The position numbers were made by a program, and so were the translations under genes. The notes under the pieces were generated by a model. It was not told the DNA's origin, did not search any database, and saw nothing but the letters and a program-made list of their open reading frames with translations. DNA of 64,000 nt, taken from the NCBI GenBank assembly GCA_033065855.1, contig JAVXUO010002005.1:434001-498000 (forward strand). Reading direction: 5' to 3'. This DNA comes from Escallonia rubra (taxonomy: Eukaryota > Streptophyta > Magnoliopsida > Escalloniales > Escalloniaceae). Shown here in pieces: positions 4,926 to 56,233 of the stretch (positions are counted from its first letter, which is position 1; each line of letters opens with the position of its first letter).

Positions 4926-5477
4926 TGTAACAGTTACTCTTACCAGCTTTGAATTGAACTCGTGTTTCACTGTATTTACCACTAATTAATTACGAAATCA
5001 TCACAAGTACTAGCTAGTCAGTCTTGCATGGAACTCTTTCAAATAGCTAATTAAATTCTCTCGATCTGTAATGGTCACTTAACAACATCGATCTGGATTT
5101 TGAGTTCTCTTAACGTCTATAGATAAAAGTTTGTCAGTAATAACTGTAACTAAAATGGTAGACTGTATATTTCTCTCTTCAAAAGTTATTTGTTCCAAAT
5201 TGCTAACTATAGTTACACTCAGTAAAAAGTAATATTTTTCCTGTCAAAAAGATTCATTACCCAAGAGAGAAGTAACAAAAAGGCCAAAGTCAATAGACTA
5301 ACAAAAGTCTTGTTCTCTTGGAGCAACTCCTTTGTTTACCTAACTATTTTCACGTTTCCGGTGTATATATATATATATGATTGAAGTGTTTTTTTTTCTT
5401 TTTCCTGAGAGAAGATTAAGAATATATGATTGAAATTAATGGTTAGATTACAACAATGTTAAAACAGTAATCTCAAG

Positions 5478-5633
5478 AAAATTGACAATCTCACTCCTTA
5501 TTTAAACTAATCCAGTCCATTATTTCACTTCCCTTCAGTACAATATCAATTAGAAACGCCACTTAAAGTCATTTGGAGTGGACTAGTTTAAATTAGGAGT
5601 GAGATTATTGTCTCCCTAATTTTAAAATGAAAT
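5478..5633. mobile_element. MITE-like foldback element 1 (copy A)
   Basis: Inverted arms of about 45 bp: the left arm contains AATCTCACTCC then TTTAAACTAATCCAGTCC. The right arm read backwards gives AATCTCACTCC then TTTAAACTAGTCCACTCC. The counterpart in copy B is at about 12834-12990. It has no coding capacity and no clear target duplication was found. Confidence 0.6.
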
Positions 5634-5663
5634 TTTTTTACTGCTATCTTATTTGTAAGAAAA

Positions 5664-5830
5664 TAGTTACTACCTCTTGTATAGCGAAAATTAATTATCA
5701 TTAAATATTTTTAATGACTTTTTTTTCAGCGTAGATTCTCAGCAGTACTTTCGTAACGTCACTAAATAAAAGTCACTGAAAATTTTTAACGACAATTAAC
5801 TGTCGCTATATGAGAAATTGTAGATATCTT
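5664..5830. mobile_element. MITE-like foldback element 2 (copy A)
   Basis: The left arm reads TATAGCGAAAATTAATTATC, and the right arm read backwards gives TATAGCGACAGTTAATTGTC. Arms of about 50 bp surround a short centre. In copy B the same element is split by the Mutator-like insertion at 13071-14217. Copy C at 24363 starts inside it. Confidence 0.6.
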
Positions 5831-7860
5831 CCTACAACCTAGCTAGCAGTCAAAAAATTTTCTTTTAAAATCTCCTTTATCATAACATCTAGGGATATGA
5901 TTAGTCCTGCTATATATAATAGCTCAGAATCCCGTGCCAAGCACGGGACTGTTTATTAACATTAACTTATTTTAGTAGTTTTGAAATGCACAATTTTATT
6001 ATTTTATTATGGTTATTTCATCAAAGATAGCTATTTTAATTTTTATCTTGAACTCGCTTGTAATAAAATAAATTAATCTTTATGGTAAAATATCATTAAG
6101 CAATGTCCTTGTGCATATTTGTTAATTCTGATTTGGTAACTATGTAGATGAACAAAAATTAAAAGTTCATTTAGTAAACAAAAAAGAAAAAGTAAATTCT
6201 CTACTGATAAAATTATGCGGAGAACATATTGAGATCAATTTGTTATTGCTTAAGACATTTTTATTATTTTCTAAGAACTTTTTAAATATAATTTGTACCT
6301 TGAATGCGTTACCCATAACGTTAATTAAATATTAGTTTAATTTTGATAGAGAAAATTTTGGTCCATATATTTGTTTATAGCATAGACTAATTAAGTAAGG
6401 ATGATGTGCCACTTTCAAAAGCAAATGTAATCTACCAACAAAGTATACATAGAATATAGTAATCATTGCATGAGATAATTATATAAAGTTTAACTAACAT
6501 GACTACATAAGATAACTTAAAAATCTCGTAGTAAGGAAATTGTTGAATAAAATTTAACCAAGATTTCACAAAGCATACAATAAGTATTCCTACTAAGTAA
6601 GATTTATCTTAAGAGATGATAAGGTTTTTAATCTAAGTTTTAATTTGCATTCATCACAACATAACTAATATCTTTTTAGATTTTATATGCAATTATATTC
6701 AAAAGTATAAAAGTTAACATAAAATCATAAATGGTATAATAATATAGAATTTAGAATGCTTAAGAGTTTAATTACTCACAATAAAAGTACCATAGAAAAA
6801 AATTGGTTCAAAACTTTTCCAACATAAAATTAGTTGAATTTAAGAAATGCTCACATAATTAATGTTTTAAATTTACACTATTTATTTAATTTATCTCATA
6901 TAGAATCTGCATATTATGGTAAATATGCATTTAACCATTGCGACTAAATAGGATAGTGCAAAACCTTAGAGTAATGAAATTATTGACCAAAACTTTTAAC
7001 CAACATATTTAGTTATATTCATATTTGAATTTACAGGAAACTTAGATATGAATTTCAAATAGTACCTATTTTTTCTTATTAAATATTTTAAGTAATTTTT
7101 ATTTTACAGGTTAATATTTCATGCTAGAGAGCTTTCGATATATAATATTTAAATAAAGTCATAATAGTTTACTATATTGGTTAGAATATTTTGAATGTTT
7201 CAAATTGTTTTTTCGAATTGCATATGGCTTATTATTGAAATGTTTATTATATTTGCCGATTTAATTAATTGCAAAATTAAGAATCTCGTTCAAAATAATG
7301 TTTGGAGATCTTTAGCAACATTAATATGTTTAAGCTTAGTTTTTATAACTCTTATTCTATTAGAAATACAATGCAAAGACGTGTCATGAGCTATAATTGT
7401 ATTTCTCGGCTCAGTTATTAGATATTTTAATTTGGGATCCTGAATCTAGCTCGAGTAAATTAGTAAAATATTTTAAAAAGTTACGAAAAGTGTATCAATG
7501 CATACCACATTCAAGAAACAAAAAGAGATTATCTTATACTTTTGTTAAAACTATAATTGTTAGTAAGAAATTTTTAATACTTTATTTGTAAAACTTTCAA
7601 GTAATTTGTCAAGACTATATTATTATTAAGCTCTTTTAGTGGTTCAACATGTAACGTCTCAAAACCAAATCTCTTAGCTTCAAAAGTTAAGTTAAGAGTT
7701 CTTAATGTTTGGAATCGTAAATGTCAAACTCCGTTCTTATCTTTTTCATGGATCATTGCTTTAAGAATTCACCAATTTATTAAGATACAAACATGATATC
7801 TAGTAGAATATTTTTTTGTCTCATACACCTCTAAAATTATAGTCTTGATTAATTAAATGG

Positions 7861-8112
7861 TCATGCAATTATTGCAGAATATTTGCTAGGTATATATGTT
7901 TGCTTTAGTTCCTCTGAACTGTAAGTTTAAAGAATAATGAGTAGATTGTGTTACAGTGTCGTAGCTAGATTTTTGCGTTCTTTAAGCTTTTTTTTTACAC
8001 CATCAGGCGGTTCTGTAACACAATTTACTCATTCTTCTTTCAACTTACAGTTTAAAGGAACCAAAGCAAACATATATGCGTATGCAAATATTACGCAAGA
8101 ATTGCATAACAA
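7861..8112. repeat. Long inverted repeat inside the Helitron
   Basis: Arms of about 100 bp (7861-7960 and 8010-8112) around a spacer of about 50 bp. Matching phrases include CTGTAAGTTTAAAGAATAATG on the left and its near-perfect complement on the right. A transcript would fold into a long, slightly imperfect hairpin. It could be a foldback MITE nested in the Helitron. Confidence 0.75.
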
Positions 8113-8400
8113 TCTAATCAATATTTTAATAGTCAAAATCAGAACCTAATACGTAAATATGTCTGTAGCATAGAGTTTAAATGTTTTACAATTGATATTT
8201 ATAAGGTTTACAAATATCGCGACAATTATACCATGAATTTTTCAACAATAAATCGTAGTAAAGAGTTTGATTTTTTTCTATATATGGGATATAACCAGTT
8301 TGGTGGTCGTGAGGTCTTATTTAAAAATGTTGACTTCTAATTCGTTTATTAAATCTATATATCACATTATTAAAGATGACAATCTTATGTATGTTACGTG

Positions 8401-8401
<1 letters not shown>

Positions 8402-8437
<36 letters not shown>
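8402..8437. repeat. (TA)n microsatellite
   Basis: About eighteen TA units inside the Helitron. Confidence 0.9.
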
Positions 8438-8439
<2 letters not shown>

Positions 8440-8548
8440 AGAACATTTGACTTAATTAGAACGTTATTTTTTCCCCTTCTAAATCTAATATGTTATTTTC
8501 ATCTTTTTTCGATATATGAATTTTTATATTCACATTAAAGAGTAATTT

Positions 8549-8843
8549 TTAAAATACAATAGTTAAAATTAAGTCATAATAAGTTAGTGTATGGATTAGG
8601 TTGAGTTCTAAAATATTTAGAATTAAATCTTAAATTATACAACCCTTATTATTCTTGTAAAATTAATCAAATTTAAATTGAAAGGCACTTATCAGTAATT
8701 TTGAAAATACAATAGTTAAAATTAAGTCATAATAAGTTAGTGTATGAATTAGGTTGAGTTCTAAAATATTTAGAATTAAATTTTAAATTGTAAAGCCCTT
8801 ATCATTCTTGCAAAATTAATCAAATTTAAATTGAAAGGCACTA
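8549..8843. repeat. Tandem repeat, about 147 bp x 2
   Basis: Two adjacent copies about 95% alike, from ACAATAGTTAAAATTAAGTC to AATTGAAAGGCAC. Weaker relatives follow at 8990-9360. Tandem arrays are common inside Helitrons. Confidence 0.85.
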
Positions 8844-11030
8844 ATCAAAATTCGTTTAGATCAATTTTTTTCCTAAGTCTCGTAAGTTGTTTAATCTTAA
8901 TTGTAACATTAATATTTTTTTTATAAATCAACCGTATTATTTTCGTTTTTTTTATATATATGAGTTTTTATATTCAAGTTAGAAAGTAATTTTAAAGATA
9001 CAATAGTCAATGTTAAGTCCTAATAAGTTAATATAATGATAAGGTTAAATTTATAATTAGTTTTGAATTTTAAGAACATAGTTGTTAGAAATAAGCCTTA
9101 ATAGATTAGTACATTGATTAGGTAGAATTTTAGAATGATTAATATATATGAGTTATTATATTCATATTAGATAGTAGATTTAAAGATATAATAGTCAATA
9201 TTAACTCCTAATAAGTTAGTATAATGACAAGGTAGAGTTTTAGAATGATTAAAATTATTCTTTGAATTTTAAGGACATAATTATAAAAAAGAAGTCTTAA
9301 TAGATTAGTATGTTGAATAGGTTGAGTTTTAGAATGATTAAAATTACTTTTAAATTAAAAAAGACTTACTTATATATAAGTTAATTAATCTTAAAATAAG
9401 AATCTGATGATGTGTCATATAAAGAAACGATGACGTGTCGCGCAAAGAAGCTATCAATGTCTTTCTCGCTTCGCTTATTATATATTATATAGATATAGAT
9501 ATGTTTGTCACTGAAGAAACACTCTGTAGCCGGACTTTTGCTTAATTCCGACGTCTACTTCTTATTGTTTGAAATTCAAGACTTTTGAACTTTCTCTGTA
9601 GAGGTTACTTTGACAACATCTAGCTCTATTTTTTTTTTGGGGTAAAATTCAAGAACTTCATTGACAAATGATAGATTCAATAAAGGTAATTTTGTAGTTC
9701 ACCTCTAAACCCCGTCATGTGGATGCATAGCACGTAACCACATGCATTCGCATTGGAGTCATAAGAAGACTCACAGGACAAATGATCTGCAGAAAATATA
9801 AAGAAAACATCTTGGCTTTAGAAAGACTATTTAATTGGTAGGCTAGACAGTCAGGTTCAAGTCCACATAATTAGGAAATTAAAGCTATAAACGCAACCTT
9901 ATTCTTAACAAATTTTTTTTTTTTGGCTTCAGGTTAGCAGATTTAACATAGTAATTAACTTATTATATATTATCGGTTTATTGCCACTTTCTGGGGTAAA
10001 CTGTTTTTATTTACAGAACGGAAGTTGTTTGGATTTATCAATTATTGGTCATTAATTAATAGAGTAAATGGCATTTTACATCTTTAGGTTTTACTGGATC
10101 TGACTAGATTCTTGAGATGTTTATTTGTCGGGCCTAGTCGTTGACAAATAGGAAAAAAGCCAAACAATTTAAGGCATCCACCAAACAAAGAGAAAATTTA
10201 ACTACCTAATAACTTTGAAGATTTGGGTATCTGATTATCACATTAAATGTTACAAGTGCAAAAGTTACGAAATTTTCTTAAACTCGAGGGTTGATTTTAA
10301 AAAAGATATTTAAGCTTCATAAGTGACACTAAAATGATGATATAATGACGCTTGAGATACGTTCAGCTGCTAAAGCAGGGTTCCAGTAACTAAAAGTGAA
10401 GCTCAAATATATATTGAAATATTGAAACAATATAGATAGATATAATAAGTCGATTTGGATGGCCGATAGACAAGATGATGGTATTGCTAGACGCCAGAGC
10501 CACCAAATCAATTTGAGTGGTTGACTAGCAGTACGAGAATAACTTTGGCCACTGCTGGTGCCACCAAATCTATATGAGTGGTTGCTGACAAAGTAAGGAT
10601 TTAACTAAGAGTCGGCGCCAACAACGCGTCCATGCGGTTGGTCACTTAGTCAAAACCGGACTTATATCCTATAGTCAACAATCCCCTTAAGCAGTTGGTC
10701 GTTTAGATTTAAGGGAACTTCAAAAATATCTCTCAAAGCTGGAGCCAACTGTGTCCAGAGATAGCTAGTCGTTAGTGCCGAACATATCAGTCCACGGAAT
10801 ATGAAAAAAGTGTTACTTCTGGCAACAAAACATGAGATGTTGCATTGGCCTTACACTGCACAACATCGCTGAACTGAGCAACAAGTTCGAATAATTGGAT
10901 CAAAAAAATAACTCTAGGATGCGGGAGCAAATATGCACAGTCAAGCATGCGAGCACACAAATATTGGACAAAAACGTCTTAGGCGAATAAGCTAGTTATC
11001 ATGCAAAAGACATAAGCAGGCTGTAGTATC

Positions 11031-11377
11031 CCGTATTTTTTGAGTAGTTTAAAATAATTATCGGTGACCTGAAAAATAAGCGGGAGATAATTCTGAGCAA
11101 TGCTCGGGTACTGGTAGAGTATTGAAACATAAAAGAATTTTGGGACAAAAATATAATTTTGAAAACTTTTGGGGTCATTTTGTAATTTTAGAAAAGTTAG
11201 GCATTATGTATCAAATTTTTGGTGACTAGTTAGAATAAATTATAAACTAATGATTTATTTTTTTTAGGAAATTAAAAGGAAAGAAAATTTGGAAAGAAGG
11301 AAAAAAAAAGAGAGAAACAGTAACAGAACAGAGAAGAGAAAACATGAAAAGAAGAAGAAGAAGAATTTCGGGCAAGG

Positions 11378-11420
<43 letters not shown>

Positions 11421-11470
11421 AAAAGGAATTCGCAAGGGTAATTCTTCTACCCATTACACTGTACGTAATT
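11031..11470 (+). mobile_element. Possible LTR fragment in copy A (fossil)
   Basis: Starts TGTAGTATCCCGTATTTTT, close to the TGTAATATCCCG start of the solo LTR at 29713, and contains purine-rich and (GA)n tracts. No matching LTR end is found, so it is at most a fragment. The copy-B counterpart begins at 16143. Confidence 0.35.
11386..11417. repeat. (GA)n microsatellite
   Basis: About sixteen GA units in copy A; the copy-B counterpart near 16508-16526 is shorter. Confidence 0.9.
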
Positions 11471-11484
11471 TAGTATGTGCTTGT

Positions 11485-11841
11485 GTGTTTTCTATGTGCG
11501 TAGTGTCTAATTACTCTGTGTGTGATATGCATAGATGTGGTGCAACAACGATATCTTTTCCTCTGTTAGATATTTACTCAGCTTATGGACGGGGTTTATT
11601 ATTAGCTACAACCTGGGCTACAACAAAGCAATTTGAACATATAACTATACTAACAAATTATAAATTTCTTCTTTCACATATGTCTGAATCTGCCGACATA
11701 CTAGATTTGGTGCCACCGATCAGGTACGACTTTTACTTTATTTTGCCAGACCTCTACTCTTTGGGTGTACATAGTTTTTTTTACATGAAGCCTGTACCTT
11801 ATCAAAGTCCGTGTGCAAAGCTTAAATACAGGAACTACTGA
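11485..11841 (+). pseudogene. RNase H-like relic, copy A
   Basis: A 118-codon frame matching the first three quarters of the copy-B frame at 16594-16968, then diverging in its last third. See the copy-B entry for the fold argument. It is the less complete of the two and is unlikely to be functional. Confidence 0.35.
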
Positions 11842-12013
11842 CCGGATAAATAAAACCTTTTGTTTACCTAGTCATTTGTTTCTACCTGTTTTTGTTTTAG
11901 TAAATGTAAATATGAAGGTTTGCTATTATTTTTGTGTATATTTGTAAGCCATGGAGATATCATGGCTAGTATGAAGCTAGTTTATGTTTGTAACATTTAC
12001 TCTTAACTTTTAG

Positions 12014-12280: not shown

Positions 12281-13070
12281 TGTAACGGTTACTCTTGCCA
12301 GCTTTGAATTGAACTCGTGTTTCACTGTATTTACCACTAATTACGAAATCATCACAAGTACTAGCTAGTCAGTCTTGCATGGAACTGTTTCAAAAGGCTA
12401 GTTCAAGACTTTTGAACTCTCTCGATCTGTAATGGTCACTTAACAACATCGATCTGGATTTTGAGTTCTCTTAACGTCTATAGATAAAAGTTTGTCAGTA
12501 ATAACTGTAACTAAAATGTATATTTCTCTCTTCAAAAGTTATTTGTTCCAAATTGCTAACTATAGTTACACTCAGTAAAAAGTAATATTTTTCCTGTCAA
12601 AAAGATTCATTACCCAAGAGAGAAGTAACAAAAAGGCCAAAGTCAATAGACTAACAAAAGTCTTGTTCTCTTGGAGCAACTCCTTTGTTTACCTAACTAT
12701 TTTCACGTTTCCGGTGTGTATATATATATATATATATGATTGAAGTGTTTTTTTTCTTTTTCCTGAGAGAAGATTAAGAATATATGATTGAAATGGTTAG
12801 ATTACAACAATGCAAAAACAGCAATCTCAAGAAAATTGACAATCTCACTCCTTATTTAAACTAATCCAGTCCATTATTTCACTTCCCTTTAGTACAATGT
12901 CAATTAGAAACGCCACTTAAAGTCATTTGGAGTGGACTAGTCTAAATTACTAGTGAGATTATTATCTCCCTAATTTTAAAATGAATTTTTTTTTTACTAC
13001 TACCTTATTTGTAAGAAAATAGTTACTACCTCTTGTATAGCAAAAATTAATTAGCACTAAATATTTTTAA

Positions 13071-14217
13071 GGTTAATTACACCTATGTCCCTGAGGTTAG
13101 GCTATAATTACAGGTAAGGACAATAGTTTGGACAAATTACACTTATGTCCGTTGACCAAACAAAATCTTAATTAAAAACCCTAACGGTTTTAATGAAAAA
13201 ACTTTATTGTCCCTAAGTTGGAACCTTATTTTTTTTTAATGCCATTACTTCATCTTAAAAAAAGAAAAAAAGAAAAAGAAAGATTAATGCGCCATTACTC
13301 TCCCCCCACCCCCCAACCCCATTTATGTCTCTCAAACTCCCCCCCAACCGTCGCCCCCCTTCGCCGCCCTGTCTGCCTCCCCCTTCCCCGTCGCCGCAAC
13401 CACCCTCCCCATTGTACTTCTTTATATATACCTTCGCACCACCTTATTTTTCTCTCTAATCTCTACCACAAATGCCTTCCTTGCCAACAAAATCCACCGG
13501 CGATGAGATATGGGTAAGGCTAGCAGGTGGTTGAGGTCCCTTTTCGGCGGCAAGAGGTCGTTGTAATCTTCAGGCGACCGAGATTCCCGGCGGGGTCCTC
13601 TCAGGTCCTTCAACGGCAATGGGGGGTGGGCAGAGCTTCCAAGTACGAGGAGTCGGTGGACGCCAACAAGCACGCGATAGCGGTGGCGGCGACCAAAAGG
13701 GGCCTAACCTTCCTTCTTTCTCAATCTGCCGGTGTGGGGCGAGGGGAAGGGGCTGCCGGCGTGGGAGAGGGCTGCCAGCGCGTGGGGAGGATTTTAGTGA
13801 GAAAAATTGAAGTTTAATTTGCAGATTGAGAATTAGGGTTTTGAAACCCTAATTTGTAGATTAAGACCCTTAGGGTTTTGATGCAGATTGAGAAATTTTG
13901 ATGAAATAGACTGCAAAGATAGAGAACAAATCAATTTTAGGATTTTAAAACCCTAATATTTAAATTAAGGCTTGAAATCTCAATTTAAAAATTTTAAAAA
14001 TATTCAGTATATACAGTACAAGGAGTAGTATCGTCATTTTAAAAATAGGTATTGATGACATAATAAAAAAGTACACTTTTTGGACGGAACCCTGATGGAT
14101 GGACACGGCTGATACATTTTAAAAGTGTTTGGTCACGGTATGTTACATTTTAAAACATAATGTTCTTGACTGTAATTATACCCTAATCTCAGGGACATAT
14201 GTGTAATTAATTAACTC
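13071..14217 (+). mobile_element. Pack-MULE carrying an IQD gene fragment
   Basis: A 1147-bp element flanked by the 9-bp duplication TATTTTTAA (13062-13070 and 14218-14226). The uninterrupted site is visible at the same place in copy A (5705 region) and copy C (24370 region). Terminal inverted repeats of about 40 bp: AATTACACCTATGTCCCTGA at the left matches AATTACACATATGTCCCTGA at the right read backwards. A 9-bp duplication is typical of Mutator-like elements. There is no transposase. The C-rich interior contains a host-gene fragment at 13510-13710. A relative without this fragment lies at 34502-35587. Confidence 0.85.
13510..13715 (+). pseudogene. Captured IQ67-domain (IQD) gene fragment
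   Basis: Two stretches of plant IQD proteins are readable. At 13510 the frame starts MGKASRWLRSLFGGK, the typical IQD N-terminus, and stops after 18 codons. Shifted by frame, 13640-13690 reads SKYEESVDANKHAIAVAAT, the conserved stretch before the alanine-rich region and IQ motifs. IQD proteins are calmodulin-binding scaffolds at microtubules and membranes. Here the IQ motifs and the rest are missing and the reading frame is broken, so this is a captured non-functional fragment, not a gene. It may still be transcribed and could give rise to small RNAs matching an IQD parent gene. Confidence 0.72.
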
Positions 14218-14528
14218 TATTTTTAATGACTTTTTTTCAGCATAGATTCTCAACAGTACTTTCGTAACGTCATTAAATAAAAGTCCCTGAAATTTTTTAA
14301 AGATAATTAACTATCGCTATATGAGAAGTTGTAATTATCTTTCTACAACTCAGCTAGCAGTCAAAAGTTTTTCTTTTAAAATCTCCTTTATCCTAACATC
14401 TAGGGATATGATTAGTCCTGCTATATATTTATGTTTGTGATTTTTTTCTAAGGCACATGTCCAGATCAAATTTGTCACTGAAGAAACACTCTGTAGCCGG
14501 ACTTTTGCTTAATTCCAACGTCTACTTA

Positions 14529-14666
14529 TGTGAAATCCCACATTGAATGCAGGATAATTTGTGATTGATCTTATAAGACCCTGCTCATGAACTCATAAAT
14601 ACCTATTGACTAGCCCATTTGAGAGAGACAATGCCCTGTTGTGGGGCCGTGGACCGAGTTGTTACA
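14529..14666. mobile_element. Small solo LTR (TRIM-like fossil) in copy B
   Basis: A 138-bp insertion relative to copy A (empty site near 9560). It starts TGTGAAATCCCACATTG and ends GTTGTTACA. The flanking pentamers ACTTA and ATTTC each differ by one base from the empty site ACTTC, consistent with an aged 5-bp duplication. It has TG...CA termini and no internal region. Confidence 0.55.
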
Positions 14667-16142
14667 ATTTCTTATCTTTTTAAATTCAAAACTCATGAAT
14701 TCTCTCTGTAGAGGTTACTTTGACAACATCTAGCTCTATTTTTTTTGGGGTAAAATTCAAGAACTTCATTGACAAATAATAGATTCTACAAATAAAGGTA
14801 ATTTTGTAGTTCACCTCTAAACCCCGCCATGTGGATGCATAACACTTAACTACATGCATTCGCATTGGAGTCATAAAAGACTCACAGGACAAATGATCCG
14901 CAGAAAATATAAAGAAAACATCTGGCTTTAGAAAGACTATTTAATTGGTAGGTTAGACAGTCAAGTTCAAGTCCACATAATTAGGAAATTAAAGCTATAA
15001 ACACAACCTTATTCTTAACAAATTTTTTTTTTTGGCTTCAGGTTAGCAGATTTAACATAGTAATTAACTTATTATTATCGGTTTATTGCCACTTTCTGGA
15101 GTAAACTGTTTTTATTTACAGAACGGAAGTTGTTTGGATTTACCCATTATTGGTCATTAATTTATAGAGTAAATGGCATTTTACATCTTTAGGTTATACT
15201 GGATCTTACTAGATTCTTGAGATGTTTATTTGTCGGGCCTAGTCGTTGACAAGTAGGAAAAGAGCCAAACAATTTAAGGCATCCACCAAACAAAGATAAA
15301 ATTTAACTACCTAATAACTTTGAAGATTTGGGTATCTGATTATCACATTAAATGTTACAAGTGCAAAAGTTACGAAATTTTCTTAAACTCGAGGGTTGAT
15401 TTTAAAAAAATATTTAAGCTTCATTTTTTGAATTTGAGCTTCAGAAGTGACACTAAAGTGATGATATAATGACGCGTGAGATACCTTCAGTTGCTAAAGC
15501 AGGTTCCAGTAACTGAAAGTGAAGCTCAAATATATATTGAAATATTGAAACAATATAGATAGATAGAATAAGTCGATTTGGATGGCCGATAGACAAGATG
15601 ATGGTATTGCTAGACGCCCGAGCCACCAAATCAATTTGAGTCGTCGACTAGCAATACGAGAATAACTCTGGCTACTGCTGGTGCCACCAAATCTATATGC
15701 TGACAAAGTAAGGGTTTAACTAAGAGTCGGTGCCAACAACGCATCCACGCGGTTGGTCACTTAGTCAAAACCGGACTTATATCCTATAGTCGGAGTCAAC
15801 AATGCCCTCAAGCAGTTGGCCGTTTAGATTTAAGGGAACTTCAGAAATATCTCTCAAAGCTGGAGCCAACTGTGTCCAGAGATAGCTAGTCGTTAGTGCC
15901 GAACATATCAGTTCACGGAATATGAAAAAAGTGTTACTTCTGGTAACAAAACATGAGATGTTGCATTGGCCTTACACTGCACGTCATCGTTGAACTGAGC
16001 AACAAGTTTGAATAATTGGATCAAAAAAATAATTCTAGGATGCGGGAGCAAATATGCACAGTCAAGCATGCGAGTACACAAATATTGGACAAAAACGTCT
16101 TAGGCAAATAAGCTAGTTATCATGCAAAAGACATAAGCAGAC

Positions 16143-16570
16143 TGTAATATCCCGTATTTTTCGAGCAGTTTAAAATAATTATCGGTGACTTGAAAAATAA
16201 ACGGGAGATAATTCTGAGCAATGCTCGGGTACTGGTAGAGTATCGAAACTTAAAAGAATTTTGGGGCAAAAATATAATTTTGAAAACTTTTGGGGGTCAT
16301 TTTGTAATTTTAGGAAAGTTAGGCATTATGTATAAAATTTTTGGTGACTAGTCAGAATAAATTATAAACTAATGATTTTTTTTTTAGGAAATTAAAAGGA
16401 AAGAAAATTGAAAGAAATTCGGAAAGAAGGAAAAAAAAAGAGAGAAACAGTAACAGAACAGAGAAGAGAAAACAGGAGAAGAAGAAGAAGAATTTCTGGC
16501 AAGGATCAGAGAGAGAGAGAGAGAGATTGAAAAGGAATTCGCAAGGATAATTCTTCTACCCATTATACTG
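16143..16570 (+). mobile_element. Possible LTR fragment in copy B (fossil)
   Basis: Counterpart of 11031-11470, starting TGTAATATCCCGTATTTTT. No closing LTR end was found. Confidence 0.35.
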
Positions 16571-16593
16571 TACGTAATTTAGTATGTGTTTGT

Positions 16594-16968
16594 TTGTTTT
16601 CTATGTGCGCAGTGTCTAATTACTCGGTGTGTGATATGCATAGATGTGGTGCAACAACGATATCTTTTCCTTCGTCAGATATTTACTCAGCTTATGGACG
16701 AGGTTTATTATTAGCTGCAACTTGGGCTACAACAAAGCAATTTCAACATATAACTATACTAACAAATTTTAAATTTCTTCTTTCACAGCTGTTTGAATCT
16801 GCCGACATACTAGATTTGGTGCCACCGATCATGTACGATTTTTACTCAATTTTGCTAGACTTCCACTCTTTGGGTGTACATAGCTTGGCAGCAGGTATTT
16901 TACATGAAGCCCGTACCTTATCAAAGTCCGTGTGCAAAGCTCAAATACAGGAACAATTGACTGGATAA
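16594..16968 (+). CDS. Small RNase H-like open frame in block B
   Basis: A 124-codon frame of unknown status. The segment SAYGRGLLLAATWATTKQFQ followed by HITILTNFKFLLSQL has the spacing of the second helix and fourth strand of plant RVT_3-type RNase H domains (usually AEARALLLALxWA then xxETDSxxLVxxL). A later SVC-rich helix follows. The acidic catalytic residues expected at these points are replaced (G for E, N for D), so catalysis is unlikely. The frame has remained open while the surrounding DNA decayed. It may be a LINE-derived relic or an exapted binding domain. It has no recognised promoter and resemblance to the family is weak. Confidence 0.3.
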   Translation: MFSMCAVSNYSVCDMHRCGATTISFPSSDIYSAYGRGLLLAATWATTKQFQHITILTNFKFLLSQLFESADILDLVPPIMYDFYSILLDFHSLGVHSLAAGILHEARTLSKSVCKAQIQEQLTG

Positions 16969-17131
16969 GTAAAACCTTTTGTCTGCCTAGTCATTTGTTT
17001 CTACCTGTTTTTGTTTGAGTAAATGTAAATATGATGGTTTGCTATTATTTTTGTGTATATTTGTAAGCCATGGAGATATCATGGCTAGTGTGAAGCTAGT
17101 TTATGTTTGTAACATTTACTCTTAACTTTTA

Positions 17132-24362: not shown

Positions 24363-24573
24363 TCACTAAATATTTTTAATGACTTTTTTTCAGCGTAGAT
24401 TCTCAGAAGTACTTTTGCAACGACACTAAATAAAAGTCACTGAAATTTTTTAACGACAATTAACTGTCGCTATATGGGAGGTTGTAGTTATCTTCTTACA
24501 ACCTATGTAGCAGTCAAAATTTTTTCTTTTAAAATCTCCTTTATCCTAACATCTAGGGATATGATTAGTCATG

Positions 24574-24622
<49 letters not shown>

Positions 24623-24957
24623 GACTTTTGCTTAATTCCGACGTTTACTTCTTATTATTTGAAATTCAAGACTTTTGAACTCTCTGTAGAGGTTACTTTG
24701 ACAACATCTAGCTCAATTTTTTTTTTTTGGGTAAAATTCAAGAACTTCATTGACAAATAATAGATTCTACAAATAAAGGTAATTTTGTAGTTCACCTCTA
24801 AACCCCGTCATGTGGATGCATTGCACACGTAACCACATGCATTCGCATTGGAGTCATAAGAAGACTCACAGGACAAATGATCTGCAGAAAATATAAAGAA
24901 AACATATTGGCTTTAGAAAGACTATTTAATTGGTAGGCTAGACATTCAAGTTCAAGG
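24363..24957. repeat. Partial third copy (C) of the A/B block
   Basis: Matches copy A around 5697-5910 and then 9530-9860, and the equivalent parts of copy B, without the Helitron, the Pack-MULE or the small LTR. A (TA)n tract (24580-24616) sits where copy A has its Helitron. It ends abruptly at 24957. Confidence 0.8.
24580..24616. repeat. (TA)n microsatellite
   Basis: About eighteen TA units inside copy C. Confidence 0.9.
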
Positions 24958-34424: not shown

Positions 34425-36020
34425 GTAATGAGTCTTCGTGACACGTGCGATGCGTGTGTAAAAAGGAAGTTAAAAATATCAATTTTGTTTAAAAAAATTA
34501 AAGGTTAATTACACATATATCCCTGAGGTTAGGGTATAATTACAGACAATGACAATAGTTTGGACAAATTACACTAATGTCCGTTGACCAAACGGAAGCT
34601 TAAAAACCCTAACGGTTTTAATGAAAAGACTTTATCGCCCTTAAGTTGGAACTTTATTTATTTTTAATGCCATCAATTTCTTCTTTAAAAAAAAGAGAAA
34701 AAGAAAGATTAATGTACCCCCCGCCCCCAACCCCATTGGCCATTTCTGTCTCAAACTCCCCCCGCAGAACACCTTTGTCGCCCATCGGCCTCCCTGTCGC
34801 CGCACCCACCCTCCTTCTTCCCCTTCTCCGTCGCCACACCCACCCTCCCTATTCCTCTTCCCCGTCGCCGCCTCCACCCTCCCCCCCTTCCCCTTCCCCA
34901 TCGCCGCAACGCCGTACCTCCTACCGTAAAGATATTCGCCGTTGCTCAGTTGTGATGGCGTCGATCACGTTGCGATTTTGGACGTTGCAGATCTGGACAA
35001 CCGGCTACTTTGTCGTTGTTCTCATGGTAACGGAGGGCCAGTCACGGTGGTGATGGTGATGGCATCTTTGCTTTGCAAATTAGGGAATGTCAAATAAGGG
35101 AAGGTGATGGCATCACCGTGACTGGCATCTTTGCTTTGCAGATTTGGACAACCAGTAAGGTACCGTTGTTCTGATGTTTAGGCACCGACGACTTTGCTTT
35201 GCAAATTAGGGTTTTGAAACCCTAATTGGCAGATTGAGACCCTTTGAGAAATTGCAGATTGAGAAATTGCAGATTGAGAGTAGACTGCAAAGATAGAGAA
35301 CAAATTAATTTTAGGCTTTTAAAACCCTAATGTTGAAATTAAGGCTTGAAATCTTAATTTAAAATTTTAAAAATATTATGTATATAAAGTACAAGGGGTA
35401 GTATTGTCATTTTAAAAATACGTATTGCTGACATCATTAAAAAAGTACACTTTTTGGACGGAACCCTAACGGATGGACACGGCTGATACATTTTAAAAGT
35501 GTTTGGTCATAGAATGTTACATTTTAAAACTTTGTGTTCTTGACTGTAATTACACCCTAACCTCAGGGACATAAGTGTAATTAGCTCAAAAATTAAGCAT
35601 CGCGTATAAGTGTTTATTGTCACAAATGAATCTTAAGTTGCTGAAAAAAAAAGTTAGTTATGCGTGTGACAAAATAAGTTAGTAAAATATTATCATCATA
35701 TGACACTTAGATTTAATTTTAACTACAATTTTTTAATGGATTTGAAATTGTTAAAACCAAACATGTGAAAAGATAAAGTTACCAATATGATATTTTTGTA
35801 ATATCAAGTTTGGGCTTTAAAATTTATATTCATTATATTTTTTTTAGTAAAGTTTAAATTATGAAAACCAAACATGTCTTTATAGGTAGTTATTTATCAT
35901 TTAAGATTTGTATTTTATGTCATCTTGGAACGTCACTTGTCACCATTTTAAATAGGTAGTTAATAATATCAAAGATGTGTTATACCAAAAGAAGTTTTTC
36001 CTTTATATATAGTATAGATA
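34425..36020 (-). mobile_element. Probable second Helitron, interrupted
   Basis: The minus-strand 5' end at about 36020 reads TCTATACTATATATAAAGG next to a host A, matching plant Helitron starts. A GC-richer palindromic phrase, ACACGTGCGATGCGTGTGT, lies near 34441-34459 and could be the 3' hairpin. The interior is AT-rich and split by the Mutator-like element at 34502-35587. The 3' limit is uncertain. Confidence 0.42.
34502..35587 (+). mobile_element. Mutator-like non-autonomous element, relative of 13071-14217
   Basis: Shares terminal inverted repeats with 13071-14217 (GGTTAATTACACATATATCC at the left, CAGGGACATAAGTGTAATTAG at the right) and is flanked by AAAAATTAA on both sides (34493-34501 and 35588-35596), a 9-bp duplication. 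The left C-rich interior and the tail before the right end are shared with the first copy. The IQD fragment is missing; a different central stretch (34920-35160) of unknown origin takes its place. Confidence 0.82.
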
Positions 36021-37804: not shown

Positions 37805-40800
37805 ATGAGTGGAGCTGTCCAAGTAGCAATTGCTGCAGCAATTGGCAACTTGTTGCAAGGATGGGATAATGCAACTATAGCTGGTATGCGCCCACATTTA
37901 CTACTCCCTCCGTTCCATTCAATTTTCTCTCCTTCGAGTTTTTCCGAATTTCTAGGATAGATTTAGTACATGTAGACATAATTTACTCACTGTTTATACA
38001 CTGGCCTGACTTGCCAAACGACACTTATGTAATCTATCTTTGCTAATTGAGTTCGAATTTTTAATGTATAGATGAACAAAATCTATCCTAGGATTTTGCA
38101 AAGTTCCAATGTGGGCTGCGCTCTAGTATATCAATTCCATATTCGAGTATAGCATGATTTAGTCTTATGATCGTTGCTGAGATTTATGTCTGATCTGGTG
38201 TAGGGGCGGTTCTTTACATCAAGAGGGAATTTAATTTGCAAACTCAACCTACTATAGAAGGCCTAATTGTAGCAATGTCATTGATTGGAGCAACTGCTAT
38301 TACAACATTCTCTGGACCTGTATCAGATTGGCTTGGGCGACGTCCCATGCTAATAATCTCATCGGTTCTGTATTTTCTTAGTGGTCTAGTAATGTTGTGG
38401 TCTCCAAATGTTTATGTGCTGCTACTTGCAAGGCTACTGGATGGTTTTGGAATTGGTCTCGCGGTAACTCTAGTTCCCGTCTATATATCTGAGACTGCTC
38501 CACCAGAAATAAGGGGGCTCTTAAACACCCTCCCACAGTTCACTGGTTGTATTGGAATGTTTTTGTCATACTGCATGGTCTTTGGAATGTCGTTAATGGA
38601 TTCACCAAACTGGAGGTTGATGCTTGGGATTCTTTCTATTCCTTCTGTTATATATTTTGTACTGGCGGTGTATTTTTTACCTGAATCTCCAAGGTGGCTT
38701 GTGAGTAAAGGGCGTATGGAAGAGGCTAAACAGGTTTTACAGCGACTACGTGGCAGGGAAGATGTCTCAGGTTTGTTCACTCGTGTTCAATTCCTTTTGC
38801 AACCTGATTTATGACAATATTGGGGCTTTGCTAGGAGATAACCTACAGAATGGAAAAACCTTGGTAATGTTTAACTGATGTACAGGACGCTAAGGGGTGT
38901 CAAATTCTTTGTCAGCAAAAGCCAGCATCTAGATGCACTTATTAATCAATATACGTTGTGAACCCAGTATCTTAGAAAATTTTGTATCCCATCAGCCACT
39001 CTTTTTTGTGGCGAGAAAGAATTTTCACCTCGTTGGTCAAATTTTCTGTCTTAAAAGATAGATCTATTCGACATATTACTACATTAGTGTATGGTAACCA
39101 ACTTGTTTCCAGATTGAGAGTTGGACTTGATAAGATTGCTCCATATCCCTTTTGTGACCAAACTCTGATCCTGATTTTACACTCTTTCTATATACAGGCG
39201 AAATGGCTTTACTCGTTGAAGGTCTAGGAAGTGGAGGTGAAACATCTATAGAAGAGTACATAATTGGTCCAGACAATGAGCTCAGAGACAACCAGGAGCA
39301 TCCTATGGAGAAAGATCGTATAAAGTTATACGGGGCTGAAGAGGGCCTCTCGTGGATTGCCAAGCCAGTCAGTGGCCAGAGTACTCTTGGTCTAGTTTCA
39401 CGTTATGGGAGCATGGCGAATCAGAGCATGTCTCTTATGGATCCACTGGTCACTCTTTTTGGCAGTGTTCACGAGAAACTGCCAGAGATGGGAAGCATGC
39501 GGAGTATGCTTTTCTCACATTCCGGTAGCATGTTCAACGTGGCAGAACAACATAGTAAAATTGAACAGTGGGATGAGGAGAGCCCCTATAAGTACACCGA
39601 GCACCATGCATCTGATAATTCTGGAATGGAATCTGATGACAACTTACGGAGCCCATTGCTCTCGCGCGAGGCTACTGATGCAGACAAGAATATGGGACCT
39701 TCCAATGGGAGCTTGTATGCCATGAGAGAGCATAGCAGCCTCATGCAAGGAAATGCTGGTGAACAAGCCAGTGGCATGGGCATTGGTGGTGGTTGGCAGC
39801 TGGCATATAAATGGTCGGAGAAGAAAGGCGAAGACGGGAAGAAGGGACTCAAAAGGATCTATTTGCATCAGGAGGGTTCACTTGGCTCTCGGCGTGGGTC
39901 CCTTGTTTCATTTTCTGGTGGTGATGTGCCTGCAGAAGGTGAATTGATTCACGCAGCCGCTCTTGTGAGCCAGTCTGTTCTTCGTTCTGATCTTACTGGT
40001 CAACACCCAGTTGGAGCAGCCATGGTTCAACCATCTGAATCTGCTGCAAAAGGGCCAAGTTGGGGTGATCTTTTTGAACCAGGTGTTAAGCATGCATTGA
40101 TTGTTGGGGTAGGAATTCAAATTCTTCAGCAGGTAATATGCTTACCCTCCAAGTTTATTACAGTCACAAGCTTCTGCATATGGTTAGTTTGTTGTTGTTG
40201 TTTTCCTCCTTCTGTCACTACTAGACTTTTCTCCTCCTGAAATTTAAAATCGTGTCAATTTCGTGGAAAATTTGCACTTGCTATTTGGTTATACCATCCT
40301 CTGCCATGGTAGATCGTAGGGAGATTTGCAGATTATTATGGTTCTCGGACTAACTAGTAAAGGTCTTACAATTTCTATCTATGTTTAAATTTTCTAAAGT
40401 ACTCACATTAACGCATTTCTCCTTTCATTATCGAAGAATATAATAACTTGGGGCCCATTACAGTCGATATTATGCATCCTAGCAGCATTTCTGTGTCCAG
40501 CTAAGCAGAAAACTTGTGCTAAATCATGATTAAAACCTCCTCAATCATGCTTCTTTGAAGAAGATTTTGCAACTTAAAGCAAGTGTCCAATCTGCTTTTC
40601 AAAGTTAGATAAAAAATACTTGCTTCAAGTTGCCGAAGTAGGTGTAAAAAGGAGGATTCGATTATGACAAAAGAAAGTGCTCTGGCCAAACATATTTTTA
40701 AAGGATTTTGCTGCTCATTCCATAAGAATTTGACTTAGAATTCATTGCTATCTGTAAAAATTGGCACTCTTAAGCGAACTTGTAGCTCTAGGTCTAATTG

Positions 40801-55675: not shown

Positions 55676-56233
55676 TCACGGCAAGAATCCACCAGAACCA
55701 GCAGCTCCGTCTTGCCTCGTCTTCATTTCCGCCGCCGCCACCGGGAACTCGCCGCACTTTCGGCACCTCGCCACGACCAGCGTCTGTCTACACGACGGGC
55801 ACGACGAATGCGAGCCCAGCCACATGTCAATGCACTCGACGTGGAACCCGTGGCCGCACTGCGGCATGACGCGGATCTCGTCGCCGCCGGCGTACTCCGT
55901 CAGGCAGATGGCGCACTCCGGCGTGAACTTCCCGGCCGAGGAGGCGTCGTAGGCGAACTTGGGGAGGGACTGGAGGATCTTCTTCTTGAGGCCCCTGTTG
56001 GCGGAGGGCTGGCCTCCTGGGGAGCTGCCGCTGGCGGGAGCGCCGCCGCGGCGGAGCCAGGCGCAGCGGGCCACGGCTATGAGGCCGACGACGCAGATGA
56101 GGGCGCAGAGGAGGGCGGCGAGGATGACCACGAAGTCGGACTCGACGGCGACGGCTTGAGGCGGCTCGGCTGCGGCTGGGGTCGAAGTGGAGGTTGAGGT
56201 GAGGGCCGAGAGGAGTCTGAGTGGACGAGTCAT
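55676..56233 (-). CDS. ATL80-like RING-H2 E3 ubiquitin ligase
   Basis: An intronless gene of 185 residues, like most ATL genes. N-terminus MTRPLRLL, one membrane helix at about 34-55 (DFVVILAALLCALICVVGLI), the plant-specific GLD motif in GLKKKILQSLPKFAY (81-95), and a RING-H2 domain with C107, C110, C126, H128, H131, C134, C145 and C148 plus the conserved W138. The order and the C-terminal CRKCGEF and GGFLP resemble Arabidopsis ATL79/ATL80. It is expected to anchor in the endomembrane or plasma membrane and, with an E2 enzyme, ubiquitinate partners; ATL genes often respond to stress. Very GC-rich compared with its surroundings, which is typical for the family. Intact. Its 5' flank is tandemly duplicated. 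Confidence 0.93.
   Translation of the reverse strand: MTRPLRLLSALTSTSTSTPAAAEPPQAVAVESDFVVILAALLCALICVVGLIAVARCAWLRRGGAPASGSSPGGQPSANRGLKKKILQSLPKFAYDASSAGKFTPECAICLTEYAGGDEIRVMPQCGHGFHVECIDMWLGSHSSCPSCRQTLVVARCRKCGEFPVAAAEMKTRQDGAAGSGGFLP

Follow-up and report, generated by a model that had tools for sequence, protein, structure and literature searches.

A probable Pack-MULE carrying the start of an IQD gene in Escallonia rubra, and nested remnants of the same gene piece in its element family

Pack-MULEs are Mutator-like elements that carry pieces of other genes, in rice with a bias to the 5′ ends of genes, and the ways in which they gain and exchange gene pieces are still debated. In tomato, the Pack-MULE family PM-ZIBP carries a fragment of a zinc-ion-binding-protein gene that traces to a single parental gene; it has 14 copies, each at its own locus, with tabulated elements of 944–1372 bp and AT-rich duplications of 9–10 bp (PMC3310237). 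More than 3,000 Pack-MULEs in rice contain fragments drawn from over 1,000 genes, and captured pieces have been linked to small RNAs able to silence their donor genes (PMC13317346). In most of the Oryza species studied, at least two parents are recorded for 5–10% of putative genes derived from MULEs (PMC4858842). For captures by animal Pack-TIR elements, the models proposed are gap filling and FoSTeST template switching (PMC8277862). At the tomato sun locus, IQD12 was moved beside another gene (PMC5056178). The one paper found to name both Pack-MULEs and IQD genes treats them separately, and none of the titles and abstract openings found, outside which much literature lies, concerned the exchange of captured pieces between MULE lineages.

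The element and its donor gene

We analysed a 64,000-nucleotide stretch of the Escallonia rubra genome (contig JAVXUO010002005.1, positions 434,001 to 498,000 of the forward strand), referred to here as the window. Window positions 13071-14217 constitute a non-autonomous, putatively Mutator-like DNA element with imperfect inverted ends of ~53 bp and a perfect 9-bp target-site duplication, which very probably is a Pack-MULE carrying a fragment of one particular IQD gene. A sequence-only reading of the window had described inverted termini of about 40 bp and a perfect 9-bp duplication, and both were found. The element is laid out as follows:

13062..13070, no strand: left target-site duplication TATTTTTAA, an exact repeat of 14218-14226
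13073..13125, + strand: left terminal inverted repeat, 46/53 identical to the reverse complement of the right end
13071..13402, + strand: 5′ backbone, AT-rich subterminal and then C-rich; common, to element position 316-339, to family members without the IQD block (L028, L029, L074)
13403..13509, + strand: captured IQD leader, including a TATA-like stretch TTTATATATACC (named by eye); colinear with L006:1501-1620, with 11 substitutions at 107 aligned sites
13510..13695, + strand: captured start of IQD exon 1, ~62 codons with broken frame; 8 substitutions at 186 aligned sites compared with the donor
13692..14211, + strand: 3′ backbone, comprising a GC-rich linker (to ~13830), AAACCCTAA-like repeats and an AT-rich subterminal part; common from element position 621-622 to L029 and L074 (no IQD block)
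14158..14211, − strand: right terminal inverted repeat, pairing with the left end at 46/53
14218..14226, no strand: right target-site duplication TATTTTTAA, an exact repeat of 13062-13070

An exact 9-bp match at the spacing of the duplication arose in 7 of ~200,000 random draws from the window. The captured block has a GC content of 0.546, compared with 0.383 for the remaining element and 0.40 for the window. The AAACCCTAA-like repeat units, which we take to resemble plant telomere-type boxes, are found in the 3′ interior at 13830-13970, again at 35200-35340, and in many family loci, with many copies in the type IV elements described below.

A search of the whole genome (566 Mb, 3222 contigs) with the element interior identified a single donor, an IQD gene with its ATG at C2365:583210, whose exons match the Pfam IQ family in two stretches (PF00612, 5.6e-10) and DUF4005 (PF13178, 8.5e-14). 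Element positions 333-625 (window 13403-13695, 293 bp) align with this gene, at C2365:583090-583396, as one colinear block (274/307 columns, 89%), and the stretch that starts 19 bases before the ATG is identical to the donor at 197 of 206 positions. In the donor, the block covers the leader, TATA-like stretch included, and exon 1 as far as codon ~62. This exon continues beyond the block (MGKASRWFRSLFGGKRSLESSADRDSRRGPLRSFNGNGGVGGASKYEESVDANKHAIAVAAATAAVAEAALAAAQ...KIQSAFRAYL) and further exons encode the remainder of the IQD protein; the capture stops before the IQ motifs, which are not in the element. The next gene in the match list is a paralogue, C2065 (84% over 114 bp), and since its coding sequence runs on past the block in the same way as in the donor, the direction of copying is from gene to element. 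The sequence-only reading had proposed a Pack-MULE with a captured IQD gene start and had held that a sole parent gene, closely matching along an exon, would confirm it; the C2365 gene is such a parent, colinear with the element over leader and exon 1.

Two separate IQD signatures had also been recognised within the element. Both are present, but they are not separate, as they belong to the one colinear block, in which a stop and a frameshift disrupt the coding sequence. The first, MGKASRWLRSL, begins at 13510 and is part of a reading of 18 codons from the ATG, ended by a TAA stop at codon 19 (13564-13566), whereas the second, SVDANKHAIAVAAT, lies at 13653-13694 in a different frame owing to the absence of one G from a G run. 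The 3′ joint has a 3-bp microhomology (CCA) between donor and backbone, and at least 3 bp would be shared at 5% of random joints; the 5′ joint lies within a C-rich stretch, where microhomology carries little meaning. A literature search for the peptide VDANKHAIAVA found none.

Nested remnants and the order of events

To the extent that remnants were long enough to be found, since shorter ones may be missed, a genome search with the donor first exon and leader gave 33 matches from 32 candidates, all of which were scored. Apart from the donor and two pieces of the paralogue C2065, there are 30 matches, every one of which sits in sequence of the same element family. Both inverted ends flank 28 of the 30 loci, the exceptions being L019 and L069, which have each lost one. 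A target duplication with no more than one mismatch accompanies 25 loci, for which random pairs from the same locus were equally good in at most 1 of 60 draws, and five have no clear duplication. Among the 23 perfect duplications, 17 are of 9 bp, two of 8 bp and four of 11 bp, the last including one insertion seen twice and one duplication in a TA run. Shared flanks indicate that L003 and L005 (95–97%) and L022 and L023 (98.5–99.8%) are each one insertion seen twice, so the loci represent at most 28 insertions. The pieces fall into four types, with positions given on the donor query:

Type I: long block, 162/191-468; 5 loci, with L003-L005 lacking the TATA-like part
Type II: same 3′ joint as type I, other 5′ neighbour; 2 loci, one with a further internal insertion
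Type III: ~90 bp, 294-383; 9 loci
Type IV: 44–54 bp, 302-345/355; 14 loci

Two loci, L008 (C2632) and L007 (C2097), were considered as donor genes with a spliced capture and rejected, as both are further family elements. In L008, the gap of ~1 kb reflects an insertion into the element rather than an intron: at L008:1637-2660, the IQD remnant of a type II copy is interrupted by a sequence of ~1.0 kb that has TAGACCTGGCAAA.../...TTTGCCAGGTCTA as its inverted ends and ACGCGATA as an 8-base duplication, and that looks like a hAT-type element.

The family to which these loci belong is large, as indicated by the 2392 first-look candidates in a genome search with the left end, 40 of which were scored and all matched at 91–100%. 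Across 39 element rows, at least ~180 bp is shared on the left and a variable part on the right (62 bp in L044, 180–380 bp in most), and the interiors differ. L028, L029 and L074 keep the backbone of the window element to 316-339 and again from 621-622, with other sequence between, and this retention of both sides around another filling means that the IQD block occupies a slot. In five loci, namely the window element and four others (three other insertions), that slot (element positions ~340-621) is filled by the IQD block, and in other members by other sequence; a single insertion may account for both L028 and L029, which are alike where compared and carry identical duplications.

The window itself contains a second family member:

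34502..35587, + strand: sister element of the same family but another end-lineage, with unrelated interior and perfect duplication AAAAATTAA

It shares element positions 1-343 (79%) and 761-1139 (89%), and its interior (34850-35200) has its best match among the family loci compared in L032 (79 bp, 87%), the rest being short C-rich stretches. The sequence-only reading was correct that this sister lacks the IQD signatures, as there is no IQD block in it. Its suggestion that the capture followed the parting of the two copies, or was lost in the sister, does not hold: the tree described next places the sister in another end-lineage, and, its interior being unrelated, it gives no date for the capture and no evidence of a loss. 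Dating by the sister was therefore rejected.

The tree was built on element ends alone, with 58 rows, 30 with the block and 28 without. It contains three supported clades (bootstrap/SH-aLRT), formed by type I (99/87), type IV (100/99) and seven of the nine type III loci (100/99), the type I clade also holding three elements without the block. The types require 8 changes on this tree compared with a mean of 27.1 after shuffling (0/200 as low), a difference to which near-copies alone would also contribute by lowering the count. Therefore, the same exon start is found on at least three end-lineages.

Our preferred reading, held with some reserve, is one capture of 293 bp, which was then trimmed to ~90, 54 and 44 bp while being copied into the interiors of at least two further lineages of the family. 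This is the best reading because the type III and IV pieces are nested within the type I block. The capture would have taken place when gap repair within the element switched its template to the donor gene, and the spread by cut-and-paste transposition with the transposase supplied in trans. Later, and less surely, trimmed pieces of the block may have been copied into other element lineages by similar switching between elements.

The principal alternative is that the same IQD exon was captured at least twice, once as the long form (types I and II) and once as the short (types III and IV), the donor being a hot spot of capture. We consider this a possible but doubtful account. The end-clades that bear types III and IV are not that of type I, no derived base links these two types to types I and II, and they are joined to element sequence differently. 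Set against this, a second draw from a gene of ~3.6 kb, let alone from a genome, would be unlikely to fall wholly inside the first, and exchange between elements is visible in any case, since type IIIa (L018, L019) has the left neighbour sequence of type IV and the joints of IIIb. Types III and IV are tied to each other by shared neighbours as well as by a common derived base (12/14 in type IV). A longer source for type III is also indicated, weakly, by a displaced scrap of donor leader: an exact 13-base match, CGGCGATGAGATA, lies on the far side of the piece in two of the three type III neighbours tested (L019 and L022; L018 has one mismatch). Leader matches of at least 12 bases occurred in 0 of 300 shuffled type III neighbours, in a test made after the scrap had been sighted by eye, so the derivation of type III from a longer block, as if scrambled, is only hinted at. 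A base at alignment column 183 shared by the elements was rejected as proof of one capture because the paralogue has it too; its presence in nearly all elements and the paralogue indicates that the donor itself changed.

Superfamily, landing site and direction

The assignment to the Mutator-like superfamily is probable rather than direct, as it is based on the ends and the target duplication, no transposase-bearing relative with these ends having been found at the two places examined. A PF10551 profile search scored the best 150 of 3309 first-look candidates; two of the at least 150 places with MULE transposase were examined for these ends, and neither was in such an element. Many of the best 150 matches had the same score and frames of 777–783 aa, as if recently multiplied; one such MULE-type transposase frame, of 777 aa, begins at L077:3253 (C1232).

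An element of another superfamily with duplications of 8–9 bp, such as hAT, is an improbable alternative. It would accommodate the missing transposase partner at the two places examined and the short, imperfect inverted ends, which extend over ~38–63 columns in most of 41 aligned rows, compared with a requirement of 100 bp for MULE ends in work on tomato. However, that work gives duplications of 9–11 bp as the mark of MULEs (PMC3310237), and the perfect duplications here are mostly of 9 bp (17/23), with four of 11 bp; in addition, the many kinds of interior between common ends correspond to the habit of Pack-MULEs.

The landing site of the window element lies in a local duplication, comprising block A (4926-5917 and 9504-12012), block B (12281-17131) and a third fragment, C (24364-24956). 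A stretch of ~3.6 kb (5918-9503) splits block A and is largely absent from B. Querying with the element flanks joined by one copy of the duplication recovered two empty sites:

4926..5917, + strand: empty site in paralogous block A; single TATTTTTAA at 5706-5714, joined flanks matching contiguously at 92.5%
24364..24585, + strand: empty site in fragment C; single TATTTTTAA at 24371-24379, joined flanks matching contiguously at 88%

Across the joint, each has a single TATTTTTAA and zero residue of the element, so that the unoccupied target noted in both places by the sequence-only reading is exact. The K2P divergence between blocks A and B is 0.030 to the left of the element (772 sites) and 0.049 from 450 bp to its right (2413 sites). 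Together with the empty sites, this divergence indicates that the element inserted after the local duplication; precise excision from both A and C would be a poor substitute for a later insertion.

Other window frames with Pfam matches are an Ulp1 protease C48 (20375-21139, − strand), a sugar transporter (38236-38814, + strand), a RING finger (55676-56233, − strand) and a reverse-transcriptase-like RVT_3 (61-660, + strand). Ulp1 domains occur in MULEs.

The reverse direction, in which the IQD first exon would derive from the element, is scarcely credible: the shared block by itself gives no direction, but the coding continuation of the donor is also present in C2065 (MGKASKWFRGLLG... and NKHAIAVAAATAAVAEAA), the donor has IQ and DUF4005 exons in addition, and other family members fill the slot with other sequence.

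Decay, possible effects and known systems

Each of the five type I copies is disrupted by a stop, loss of the ATG or a frameshift, and a protein-coding role for these full copies was rejected because the frame is kept in none of them. The window copy differs from the donor by three synonymous and five nonsynonymous codon differences, and nonsynonymous differences equal or exceed synonymous ones in nine of nine copies counted. As judged from its reading frame, the element is predicted to make no IQD protein. The coding part of the window copy has a K2P divergence of 0.044 to the donor, compared with 0.063–0.099 for the other four full copies, whereas its leader is the farthest of the five (0.112 versus 0.051–0.107). 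Among themselves, the type I copies diverge by 0.03–0.11 at the ends and 0.07–0.14 in the block. One old capture followed by equal rates does not predict the closeness of the window copy's coding part, and unequal decay or conversion by the donor is therefore needed; the former is likely and the latter conceivable.

Sharing with the donor was counted as exact 21- and 24-mers. The window copy has 95 shared 21-mer positions, in runs of 55, 23, 52 and 45 bases, while the other four full copies have 27–43 and the two type II copies 10 and 22; 7 of 9 type III and 13 of 14 type IV loci share none. On this basis, small RNAs perfectly matching the donor could arise mainly from types I and II. Small-RNA action on the donor is thus possible, and an effect on the host could arise through such RNAs or through the moved leader.

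Capture by a Pack-MULE is a known kind of event, but here the donor, the edges of the captured block and the untouched landing site are all readable. Since these are found in one genome together with other fillings of the slot and nested remnants, the order of events becomes testable: capture, spread, insertion at this site after the local duplication, and transfer to other end-lineages. If the hand-over between lineages is true, the family consists of exchangeable interior cassettes between interchangeable ends, and one capture can be traced through successive transfers. For annotation, IQD-like signatures in such elements should be regarded as remnants and not as calmodulin-binding genes.

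As at the tomato sun locus, where the mover is reportedly the retrotransposon Rider, an IQD gene has been moved by a transposable element, but sun involves a working gene with changed expression, whereas here only a broken copy of a gene start was moved. The element resembles rice Pack-MULEs, whose fragments sometimes come from several parents, in having a GC-rich gene fragment between MULE ends and in being a possible source of small RNAs, and differs in concerning another plant and another donor. With animal Pack-TIR elements it has in common a capture with microhomology at a joint and copies multiplied by later transposition; those models were shown in animals, and their application to plant Pack-MULEs is called worth exploring there (PMC8277862). 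PM-ZIBP likewise is a non-autonomous MULE with one captured fragment from one parent. However, the variation of PM-ZIBP lies in tandem terminal repeats, whereas in the Escallonia family it is the captured piece itself that varies, in nested shortened types on several end-lineages.
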